Assembly: GCA_028278335.1 (NCBI GenBank)
Contig: JANQEN010000006.1
Coordinates: 1 to 32,498 of the forward strand
Direction of reading: 5' to 3'
Length of the DNA stretch: 32,498 nt
DNA from: Chitinivibrionales bacterium
Lineage (GTDB): Bacteria > Fibrobacterota > Chitinivibrionia > Chitinivibrionales > JANQEN01
Part shown: piece by piece, positions 2,738-6,092 of the stretch
Layout: every line of letters begins with the position of its first letter
Position numbering within the stretch: the stretch's first letter is position 1
The notes under the pieces: model-generated
The model's input: only the letters and a program-made list of their open reading frames with translations
Told to the model about the DNA's origin: nothing
The model's database searches: none
Position numbers and translations under genes: made by a program

Positions 2738-3640
2738 TTATTTATGTATCATTGCTTTCATTGTTGTTATAGTTTTTCCTCTTTTTAATGTAACAAAATG
2801 GATTCCAGAATTCAGATTAGTTGACAATGTTTTCCATTGTTGTACAGCAATACCAGAAGACCTATACACTGTTTTTCCCAAGGCATTTGTTACTGAAACC
2901 GCATAATGATCCTTCAGAGGAATAGAGAGTGCAATGTGTCCATCGGTTATTTTCATTTGAATGCCATTCGTACCGATAGTTTTAGATTGCACTATTGGTG
3001 TTGGCTCCTTATACTCAATAGTGAGTTTCGGTCTCTTTGTTGCATCACTTGCCTCGGAGGACACATACACTAAATTTTTTTCATGAGTAGATTGATTAAA
3101 AGGAATTTTAATCATGAATCCATGATTTTCTGCACTATTATCGATGAATTCTTTTATTGCTTTTGATACATCAAATTCTTCCCAGGAGTTTTCTGATGAA
3201 GAAGAATTTTTAACCAACGCTGGCTTTTCTATGGAATTATTTATATCCCAATCAACGCTGGATTCATTCCAACTAGCAGTAATTTTATAACAGTCTTTTG
3301 ACGTTCCAAATTTTTTAACAAACATTCCCAAAGTTGCTTTTACGATTTCTCCATTAACTGAAATCCCATCTAAATCAAATTTCACAGCTACTTGAGACTG
3401 ACCAGTCTCGGGAGTACCTCCTCATCAACCACCAGAGCAGTACGAGCTTGATAATTTTAATTCAGATTCATCACCTGATGGTTTGTTCCAATTAATTGCA
3501 TTTCCCGAAAATAAATAGGAGTCTTCACAACCGGTATAACCGTCACTGCCGTTTTGTAGTATAATCTTCTTATTTTGTGCAAAGACTATACTTATTCCTA
3601 CAAATAGCATTATGAGGAATAACATTTTAATTTTTTTCAT
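2738..3640 (-). CDS. Exported DNRLRE-domain protein with tandem in-frame UGA (candidate Sec72-Sec73)
   Basis: Read through two adjacent TGA codons (3425-3427 and 3422-3424), one frame encodes 300 residues. Residues 1-22 are a signal peptide ending VFAQ. The body matches DNRLRE (CBM96-like) surface beta-sandwich domains: GYTGCEDSYL near 34-43, VKFDLDG near 86-92, ASWNES, FDVSKAI and KRPKLTIEY. The last 70 or so residues look like a type IX-style sorting domain (VSVTNALGKTVYRSSG). Before and after the TGA pair the frame, domain homology and codon use continue unbroken. The pair sits in the loop CSGG-xx-GGTPETG, with Cys38 and Cys68 nearby. Trp is written TGG elsewhere in this gene. A perfect hairpin with a GGTC loop follows 18 nt after the second TGA. 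Selenocysteine fits best; Trp or Gly recoding, or decay, are alternatives. Conventional callers would split this into a 71-residue and a 215-residue piece. Confidence 0.75.
3394..3421 (-). promoter_or_regulatory. Candidate bacterial SECIS hairpin after the tandem TGA
   Basis: Reading the minus strand from just after the second TGA, an 18-nt stretch ends in the 5' arm GAGACT (3409-3404). Then come the loop GGTC (3403-3400) and the 3' arm AGTCTC (3399-3394), a perfect 6-bp stem. Bacterial SECIS elements lie inside the coding region just past UGA, with a short apical loop having G in the first two positions. Distances are 18 nt from the second and 21 nt from the first TGA. The same GGUC loop at 18 nt is what I recall for E. 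coli fdhF. One hairpin would have to serve both UGA codons. Confidence 0.7.
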
Positions 3641-4943
3641 AAAAAACCTTTCATTATGAAAGCTTTAAGTGGTTAGTTTGCAGGTAAATAATTTATAAAA
3701 AATTATCTATTCTTAAGGTACTATCCACCTCCTTTCATTTTAATCTAATATTCCATAAAAGAAGAGCCATTTTTAATCTCCTGTATTATAAATGGCTCCT
3801 ATCAATAGATGATTTTAAACAAGTTAATTCATTCAATATGTCTAGCTGTAACGCTATACCAGCATAACAGAGAAGCAAGTACTTTAAATAGCGCAGGTCG
3901 AACATTAGGAATACCACGATTTCCCTTATGAGAATTATTGAAAAACTGCAGGTTAACTACCTCGAAAGAGCGATAACCTCAATTATGTAATGCTAAATAG
4001 CTCATAGAAATTTAGTGACAATTAGGTAAATAGCAATGCAACTATGTATCTATTAAATTAATATATTTAAACTGGAATGTTGGATATTTTTATCAATCTA
4101 TTCATTTTTTTATAGGTTCTTCTTATTAATCTTCTCCCATTTTCCCTAATAGCCGAATTTACTGTGCTTTGATTGTTAGTGATCGATATAGCATTATTGT
4201 GTTAATAATTATTTGGGCCTTACCCTGCTTTGCAGGGTCGCCGTGGTTCCAGGCTACCTTCCAGTCGGTCCTCACTTCGTTCGGACTGGCCTCCGGCCAC
4301 CTTCCACCTGGCTAAGGCAAAAGATTAAAAGATTGCCAAAAGTCTAAAACCAAATGTCGAAAAAGTATCATAGGATTTATTTAACTTTAACTTACTTTAG
4401 GCACTTTAAACTCCACACTCTTTTTCTCCGCAGGAACACTGCTTGTCTACACATCTTCAATTCATATATGCAAAATATTATGTAGTGTGCCAACCGTGAG
4501 GGAGCGGAGTATATACCACTCTTGGGATAATCATAATCACAACAAATCCCAAGCCCTGGAAAGACGAAAAAAACTAAACCTTTGCATGGCGCTTTCAAAA
4601 AATGTCTGAATCAGGATGGTCACGATAAAAGGATACACAGGATAACAATAATGTATAGCAACTACAATTTCTGTATATCTTGCCAATCCTTCAATCCGGT
4701 AAATTCTGATTCTGACAATGGATTATTTGAAACCTGACCATAACACCAACCCTTGGAGGGGAAACATTGTATACGCAGGCAGACAGTTCTCTCCTTGTTT
4801 TAAAATTTTGGAAAATATATTAGTATTAAAATTTAGGAAGATATGTATATTATTAAATATCACAATGACCAACCCAAACTTTATTAGCATTTAAATAGAA
4901 AGTATTGTAGTTTTCAACTAAACTTTATAAAAAAGGAGGACAA
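3641..4943. other. 1.3-kb gene-free stretch between the two candidate selenoprotein genes
   Basis: The two selenoprotein candidates are divergent, so both promoters should lie here, but I cannot place them. The only structured element is the inverted dispersed repeat at 4212-4425. Around 4600-4645 there is a TCAGGATGGTCACGAT-type sequence resembling intergenic repeat remnants. I find no tRNA (in particular no tRNA-Sec) and no convincing gene. The small open frame at 4392-4598 has no ribosome binding site or recognisable content. Confidence 0.5.
4212..4425 (-). repeat. Dispersed repeat, inverted variant copy (D)
   Basis: On the minus strand this copy shares the head of copies A and B (GTGTGGAGTT, GTGCCTAAAGT, TTTTCGACATTTG, AATCTTTTGC). 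Its GC-rich module is different: ACCCTGC-TTT-GCAGGGT is a perfect hairpin and CCAGTC / GACTGG forms a second. So the family combines a constant head with exchangeable hairpin modules. Confidence 0.65.
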
Positions 4944-6023
4944 ATGTTGAATACATTAAAAACAACAGCATTGTTTTTAATATGCTCTGTCTTTATTGTA
5001 CAAGCAGTAACCTTAGTAGAATATGGTCACTGACTTACCTGAGGAACCCAGCAAGGCGTGACCTTGAAAATCGCCAATACTCTTAAAGAACTGGGTAAGA
5101 GTATTATTTTTCTTACACTTCATGACAAAGGAGGCTGAACCGGTCAAACAATATCTGAAGTTTCAGATAGCGGACAGGCTCATAGAGCAAAAGTATCATA
5201 TGGATTTGAAACAGGGGGTACCGCATATAATGGAATAGCTATACCTCAATATGGTTTTAATAAATCATATGTTGATATAGCGTATATTAAAAATAAGGGT
5301 GCAATCCAACAGCATGCAGATTTTGATTTAAAAATTACTGCAGTAAATGCAGCTAAAGACGTAGCAGATCTTAGTGTCACCATTAAGCCTAAGATTGCTA
5401 TACCAGACAGCGTGGTTATCCATGTGTTCCTTTATGAGTCATACGTAGACTATGGAGTCTACAATTTTCCAGGTACATTAGTCGAGAAATTTAATCACAA
5501 TGTCGTTAAAAGGATGCCTACCGGTTTTGATGGAACTCCTATTCCAGCACTTGCTGTGGGTCAAAATCATACGGTAAACGTTAAATTAAAAAGACACGCA
5601 ACCTATGATGTTGCTGACAGTATGAGAGTTGCAGTTGTACTTCAAAAAATTACCACCGTGATCCAGCAAGGTGCTGAAGTATTAAAAGCAAAAGAAGCAT
5701 TAGCTGCTGTTGACACTAAGGGGTCGCCATTTTTAAATACAATGATTATTGTAGGAAATTCAATAAAATTTCAAAGAAAGCAATACAAAAGCATCGCATT
5801 TAGAAATATAAAGGATAATGTTTACTCTTTTAATGTGCCTTTTAATAATTCAACAGTAGAACTGTTTACTGTATCTGGTAAGAAAATTAAATCTTTAAAA
5901 TTGTCTAACAAATCTATCGGTGAATCGGTGAATTTTAAAATTCCAAATTCAAAGGGTATGTATCTTCTTAACATAAGAGATAATAGAAACCAGGCAATCA
6001 ATTTAAAGATCCTAAATCATTAA
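4944..6023 (+). CDS. Exported Omp28-like thioredoxin-fold protein with three in-frame UGA (candidate Sec30-x-x-Sec33, Sec65)
   Basis: A strong ribosome binding site (AAGGAGG, 4933-4939) precedes ATG at 4944. A signal peptide follows, ending VQA at about residue 21. The frame runs 359 residues through TGA at 5031-5033, 5040-5042 and 5136-5138. LVEYGH-x-LT-x-GTQQG followed by SIIFLTLHDKGG matches the first beta-alpha-beta unit of Omp28-related thioredoxin-fold proteins, where the two x positions are the CxxC redox pair. FNHNVVKR (183-190) and EVLKAKEA (245-252) match the later Omp28 region. Residues about 270-359 form a type IX-like C-terminal domain (ELFTVSGKKI). The mature chain contains no Cys and no Trp. 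Hairpins follow the TGA codons. Inferred role: a cell-surface or periplasmic selenol/diselenide oxidoreductase. Conventional callers would report only the part from 5412. A terminator follows at 6050. Confidence 0.78.
5043..5066 (+). promoter_or_regulatory. Candidate SECIS hairpin for Sec30/Sec33
   Basis: After the second TGA, 14 nt lead up to the loop CGTGA (5057-5061), closed by the perfect 5-bp stem CAAGG (5052-5056) / CCTTG (5062-5066). The loop has G at position 2. Loop distance is 23 nt from the first TGA and 14 nt from the second, the latter slightly short of the usual 16-37 nt range. A competing fold pairs GGTCAC (5025-5030) with GTGACC (5058-5063) and encloses both TGA codons. Confidence 0.5.
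5139..5169 (+). promoter_or_regulatory. Candidate SECIS hairpin for Sec65
   Basis: The stem TATCTGA (5152-5158) / TCAGATA (5163-5169) is a perfect 7-bp match closing a 4-nt loop AGTT with G at position 2. The loop starts 20 nt after the TGA at 5136-5138, inside the usual bacterial SECIS distance. Confidence 0.65.
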
Positions 6024-6049
6024 GAGTAGAAATTCTAAATCTATATGTA

Positions 6050-6082
6050 AAGACCTCTGATTGTATTGGAGGTCTTTTTTTT
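6050..6082 (+). terminator. Intrinsic terminator after the Omp28-like gene
   Basis: A perfect 8-bp stem AAGACCTC / GAGGTCTT with an 11-nt loop is followed by an eight-T tract. It lies 27 bases past the TAA at 6021-6023. Its presence argues that transcription is meant to run to the end of the TGA-containing frame. Confidence 0.9.
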
Positions 6083-6092
6083 GATTTTGTAA

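Follow-up and report, generated by a model that had tools for sequence, protein, structure and literature searches.

Contig C20 (JANQEN010000006.1) of assembly GCA_028278335.1, from a Chitinivibrionales bacterium with a 6.33 Mb genome (301 contigs; 90.48% complete, 1.15% contamination), was analysed over a stretch of 32,498 nucleotides, hereafter the window, in which a forward-strand reading frame at 4944–6023 carries three internal TGA codons. We consider it likely that this frame is one of two gene copies whose UGA codons 30, 33 and 65 are likely all read as selenocysteine (Sec; U in motifs), and that it encodes an exported thioredoxin-fold oxidoreductase of the Omp28 type with selenium-only redox chemistry. 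The reading that best fits the sequence data is an all-selenium surface oxidoreductase resembling HBP35 and probably secreted by the type IX system. Sec at the in-frame TGAs is very likely, because the second copy keeps these codons, the frame and a low ratio of non-synonymous to synonymous substitution rates (dN/dS), the genome holds two Sec-decoding gene sets, and TGA stands at the catalytic-cysteine column in all 12 Omp28-like genes of this genome.

The frame starts with ATG at 4944, ends with TAA at 6021–6023 and comprises 359 codons; as originally predicted, the TGAs at 5031–5033, 5040–5042 and 5136–5138 (codons 30, 33 and 65) are its only interruptions. A run of 359 random codons of the same base composition would be free of TAA and TAG with a probability of ~6e-10, and together with the preservation of frame and TGAs in the second copy this places the open frame beyond chance. 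By eye, a ribosome binding site (AAGGAGG, 4933–4939) and a hydrophobic signal peptide (residues 1–21, 4944–5006) were recognised. The sole cysteine is residue 14, within the signal peptide, which bears out the claim of a predicted mature protein without cysteine. The thioredoxin-fold domain, delimited by alignment with paralogues and by a modelled cysteine-containing relative (P0003), covers about residues 22–118 (5007–5297), and is followed by a match to the Omp28 beta domain below the Pfam cut-off (residues 99–243, 5238–5672), a type IX (Por) sorting domain modelled with high confidence (residues 296–356, 5829–6011) and an intrinsic terminator of 13 pairs with a subsequent T run (6049–6077). 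Of the signals earlier cited for an intact gene, the ribosome binding site, leader and terminator thus stand, and the sorting domain (TIGR04183) scores 22.9 bits, just under the cut-off of 23.

The second copy lies on contig C161 (24894–25976), with 303 of 359 aligned residues identical (84%), and it retains both the frame and TGA at all three positions. The duplicated unit (4903–6083; 85.6% nucleotide identity) extends from ~40 bases 5′ of the ATG to the terminator inclusive. The two genes differ at 147 bases, distributed as 33, 28 and 86 over the three codon positions. With TGA treated as a separate codon, dN/dS was 0.22 for the whole gene, and 0.20, 0.38 and 0.21 for the segments upstream of codon 30, from codon 30 to 65 and downstream of codon 65, respectively; it should be noted that this evidence of conservation comes from one paralogue pair. 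The synonymous rate is lower near the TGAs (dS 0.23 vs 0.41, based on five changes only), which is compatible with a constraint at the RNA level. Judged by sequence, the frame is a real gene, one of two diverged copies, and in the copy on C161 the sorting domain passes the cut-off with 26.4 bits.

The genome is equipped for Sec decoding, as the original prediction anticipated. Two tRNA-Sec genes with TCA in the anticodon loop scored 66.7 and 61.3 bits (cut-off 47), and eight lower matches fell under the cut-off, in a search that gives matches of some strength in every one of 14 controls. Two copies each of selA, selB and selD were over cut-off, with identities within the pairs of 40%, 35% and 41%, respectively; each of the selD genes (L027 and L028) itself has one in-frame TGA. 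The selC-selA-selB sets lie at C244:31447–35026 and C6:8636–12088. Among 167 genomes of the phylum, selA was over cut-off in 15, and this genome alone has two. The C6 selA is 49–51% identical to three compared relatives and the C244 selA 36–39%, hence the C244 set looks like an acquired newcomer. Contamination is an unlikely source of the two sets, since the tetranucleotide bias of five contig stretches correlates at 0.81–0.92 (the first half of the window alone, 0.76–0.82) as against 0.15–0.60 with stretches of other genomes, and since a dispersed repeat of ~140–170 bases is common to several contigs. In the window the repeat occupies 1–139 and 2096–2268; elsewhere it lies next to selA on C244, follows the second copy on C161 and occurs on C2 and C228 and, in part, on C13. 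In the C6 stretch it was not found. Two tRNA-Sec have been reported earlier in eight bacteria in one survey (PMC5330540).

The column of codon 33 is where the 12 Omp28-like genes of this genome agree. All carry TGA there, nine within a UxxC motif, one as UGNV and two, the window gene and its copy on C161, in the arrangement described here; these last two are also the ones below the Omp28 (PF11551) cut-off, which the other ten pass. Wider relatives were compared column by column using 51 proteins of 280–380 residues, taken from the best 120 of 164 relatives of the protein from genome G004; these are ordinary protein predictions, from which Sec relatives are absent by construction. A strict CxxC pattern was dropped as too narrow, as it matched 42 of 122 proteins (the best 120 of 164 plus P0001 and P0002). 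The codon 33 column holds cysteine in all 46 relatives with a residue at that place, and likewise the column of residue 36, which is Gln in the window protein (5049–5051). The codon 30 column is occupied by S (42), A (5), G (1) or a gap (3), and the codon 65 column by S, N, T, D, A or L. Homologues with cysteine at the TGA columns, expected under the original prediction, were therefore found for codon 33 and for neither of the other two codons.

The original prediction has codons 30 and 33 coincide exactly with the two CxxC columns, a register that is three residues out in our alignments: the first cysteine of CxxC corresponds to codon 33, Gln36 stands for the second (resolving) one, and codon 30 lies three residues upstream. 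In an ungapped scan of 326 offsets, the register with U33 on the catalytic column was the maximum against paralogues L008, L034 and L006 (scores 26, 30 and 23), whereas the CxxC register scored -14, -6 and -31 against the same proteins. In addition, E26 and the next strand align without gaps when U33 is catalytic, and residue numbers coincide between the window protein and P0003 (E26, C33, C36). The earlier register could be rescued by a helix three residues longer, with codons 30 and 33 occupying both CxxC positions; U30-x-x-U33 does have the CxxC spacing, and one of the four paralogues (L005) fits it slightly better (-6 vs -12), but given the scan maxima and the gap-free strands we regard this arrangement as improbable. 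On the alignments, then, codon 33 is the catalytic-cysteine column, codon 30 an extra upstream site and codon 65 a new site in a loop.

Two hairpins near the UGAs are candidate Sec insertion sequence (SECIS) elements. The bacterial model (bSECIS; PMC13188914) specifies a loop of 3–9 nt that has a G at position one or two, a stem of at least 4 pairs and a distance of 16–37 nt from the UGA. Hairpin 1 (CAAGG-CGTGA-CCTTG, 5052–5066), predicted to serve codon 30 and perhaps codon 33 too, has 5 pairs and a CGUGA loop 23 nt from UGA 30, in agreement with the model for that codon, and taken alone it is of modest stability (z -2.0 and -2.3). On C161 it reads CGAGG-CGTGA-CCTCG, one A-U pair having become G-C at the cost of two amino-acid changes (Q37R and L41S); a calculation by hand gives about 2% as the chance that two random changes among 15 bases strike partner positions and re-pair. 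Hairpin 2 (TATCTGA-AGTT-TCAGATA, 5152–5169), predicted to serve codon 65, has seven pairs and an AGUU loop 20 nt from UGA 65, agrees with the model, and is identical on C161 while codons 66–69 all differ. Over the 12 genes, GG was found within 21–26 nt at 11 of 16 UGAs.

That the two regions are served by different hairpins, and that columns 30 and 65 are devoid of cysteine in relatives, would also suit a gene in which only codon 33 (perhaps 30) is Sec and codon 65 serves for regulated termination or slow decoding, so that translation would mostly stop early and yield the full protein only when selenium is plentiful. We hold this to be unlikely: TGA 65 is present in both copies, selection after it (dN/dS 0.21) is as strong as before the first TGA (0.20), and of the two elements hairpin 2 has the greater stability (z -3.1 and -3.7) and the better position, at 20 nt.

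Several observations weigh against an all-Sec, Omp28-type protein. The cysteine count at column 33 (46/46) was drawn from predictions that omit Sec relatives by construction, and at columns 30 and 65 none of the 51 aligned relatives has cysteine, so both sites rest on a single pair of paralogues. The loop of hairpin 1 is only 14 nt from UGA 33, short of the 16–37 nt of the model, and its stability in a 42-base context is ordinary (z -0.6 and -0.4). Support for SECIS elements is uneven, as hairpins reached by fewer than 5% of shuffles were seen at only 6 of 16 UGAs in the 12 genes, and no Rfam family reached its gathering score, the only match below it being a chance snoRNA. Against a profile of the relatives, the window protein scored 0.2 bits over its thioredoxin half, and its own AlphaFold model fails in that half (pLDDT <50 for residues 10–123). 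This model was based on 52 distant alignment rows (A3), among whose nearly invariant columns codon 33 is not found, a sign of poor alignment at that place; in a domain-only alignment (A4) codon 33 was well placed and the remainder scattered. The Omp28 match (PF11551) of 22.9 bits is under the gathering score of 34.9, and for that reason the protein is termed Omp28-type, not a member; the original assignment to Omp28 is retained in this weaker form, for an exported protein with a thioredoxin-fold relative. Finally, genome G002 (83% complete) carries a UxxC Omp28 gene, yet no selA was found in it.

Two further explanations fare much worse. A decaying pseudogene or sequencing errors, with the TGAs as mutations, might be suspected of an orphan sequence that has only sorting-domain matches outside its genome; we rejected this as very improbable, as the three TGAs recur in a copy differing at 147 bases, TAA and TAG are missing from the frame, dN/dS is 0.22, the Sec machinery is present and each of the 12 genes has TGA at the catalytic column. 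A genome-wide reassignment of TGA to Trp or Gly, which many in-frame TGAs within one family might suggest, was rejected as scarcely credible, since TGA terminates 5 of the 25 window frames, column 33 holds cysteine in 46 of 46 residues and never Trp or Gly, and selA, selB, selC and selD are present.

For the Sec-containing protein, a layout is suggested by the model of P0003 (mean pLDDT 89.7), which shows a strand-helix-strand arrangement, the active-site residue sitting where the helix begins (strand 23–29, helix 34–49, strand 57–63, a loop and helix 76–84). With the residue numbers coinciding, U30 would lie just past the first strand, U33 at the start of the helix and U65 in the loop past the second strand. 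When solved structures were searched by sequence, the window protein had no match and P0003 a single one, due to chance.

From conservation and machinery, we propose that SelB with Sec-tRNA would read through the three UGAs, hairpin 1 serving codons 30 and 33 and hairpin 2 codon 65. The signal peptide would then export the protein and, as the sorting domain suggests, a type IX system would carry it to the cell surface. The gene for the pore of that system, SprA, the component that was searched for, is on C155, scoring 396 bits with its neighbours (cut-off 200). Six of the 12 paralogues are over the cut-off for the sorting domain. At the surface, Sec33, at the helix N-terminus and in the catalytic-cysteine site of the relatives, would be the attacking selenol. 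Because the usual resolving cysteine is Gln36, resolution may pass to Sec30, as a shifted UxxU diselenide (30–33), or to the Sec of the adjacent loop, Sec65 (33–65). The enzyme of this probable anaerobe might act as a reductase or isomerase on oxidised targets at the surface or outside the cell, in the way that HBP35 of Porphyromonas works with its CxxC.

In the searches made, the protein appears confined to its genome. A search of 5.8 billion proteins with the window protein returned only the tail of its own copy on C161, and one with a paralogue alignment (A1) two proteins only, from C161 and C2 of the same genome. Scans of genome contigs gave no match when the window protein was the query; alignment A2 brought up one relative, from Lentimicrobiaceae. 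In a profile search of the phylum, with up to 13 candidates scored for each genome, the matches listed were mostly C-terminal sorting domains. Another search, of 167 genomes of the phylum, found the window kind as the two genes of this genome only, and three other genomes matched in the sorting domain alone. Four matches in the own genome outside the 12 Omp28-like genes were examined: three share the sorting domain only, and the fourth (L090, C22) is an Omp28-like remnant with the end of the beta domain and the sorting tail and no in-frame thioredoxin part. Omp28 matches occur in six genomes of the phylum; apart from the present genome, the motif is UxxC in G001, which has two genes, and in G002, and CxxC in G004, G156 and G028.

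Other probable selenoprotein genes were noted. Nine of the Omp28-like genes (L001–L005, L007, L008, L034 and L035) are all UxxC, with a thioredoxin-like WUGPC in L007; the UGNV gene (L006:1258–2367, C244), with a Sec lacking the resolving cysteine, adjoins the selC-selB-selA set of C244. In the window, a second candidate at 2738–3640 of the reverse strand, with a proper start and leader, encodes an exported CBM96/DNRLRE protein and has two adjacent in-frame TGAs (3427–3422; codons 72 and 73, SYCSGGUUGG); the GTG start listed for it at 3385 leaves out the leader and both TGAs. Its relative on C222 (L091), identical at 80 of 210 aligned residues over the first 260 columns, carries a single TGA behind a cysteine in the corresponding region (RESCUSYP). 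On C148, a thioredoxin-like protein (L092) has SITUPPFC ahead of a sorting tail, and a sorting-tail protein on C178 (L093) has an in-frame TGA in DIFCUGSP. Given the CBM96/DNRLRE gene and the gene on C148, the organism's selenium-rich surface probably extends past Omp28. We would put at even chances the more ambitious proposal that the whole redox centre consists of three Sec without cysteine and that a genome with two Sec systems has turned all 12 complete Omp28-like genes, along with other surface proteins, into selenoproteins. If true, a cysteine-free multi-Sec enzyme of the thioredoxin fold would test what selenium adds without a sulphur partner, one hairpin for two UGAs nine bases apart would be a test of SelB on closely spaced Sec codons, and the genome, with its two Sec systems and burst of probable surface selenoproteins, would be a case for studying why selenium goes outside the cell.

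The novelty claimed by the original prediction has to be narrowed, as Omp28-related selenoproteins with one Sec (UxxC), and UxxU in other families, are already known. Neither the protein and genome searches above nor an open-licence library of the literature yielded another Omp28-type protein that has UxxU or three Sec; the one paper there in which Omp28 and selenocysteine occur together is a Helicobacter study. What appears new, from sequence, is the shifted UxxU plus a third predicted Sec without a mature cysteine, in these two genes only. The closest named family, NF045500 (Omp28-related selenoprotein; hypothetical protein GOS_C in the table of a review), is likewise of the Omp28 type with Sec. 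In that review (PMC13188914) it is listed as UxxC with one Sec, whereas the window protein has three predicted Sec and no resolving cysteine. NF045500 weakly matches 8 of the 12 proteins of this genome (18.0–39.1 bits; its cut-off of 200 is reached by none), and the window protein and its copy on C161 do not match it at E 0.1. As predicted for the window protein, UxxU selenoproteins have a redox motif in which two residues separate one Sec from the other; they include Prx-like thiol:disulfide oxidoreductases, the mercuric-reductase-like metal-binding NF041115, the FmdB family and SELENOW of amphioxus and Ostreococcus, all of other families and, in the rows examined, with two Sec at most. The window protein differs from them in that its second predicted Sec occupies the first column of the family CxxC. 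SelL is also a UxxU selenoprotein. The outer membrane protein Omp28 (PF11551; PDB 2r2c) resembles the window protein in having a beta domain after a thioredoxin fold. HBP35 of Porphyromonas gingivalis (PDB 5y1a) has CxxC without selenium and binds hemin, whereas the window protein is predicted to carry Sec.
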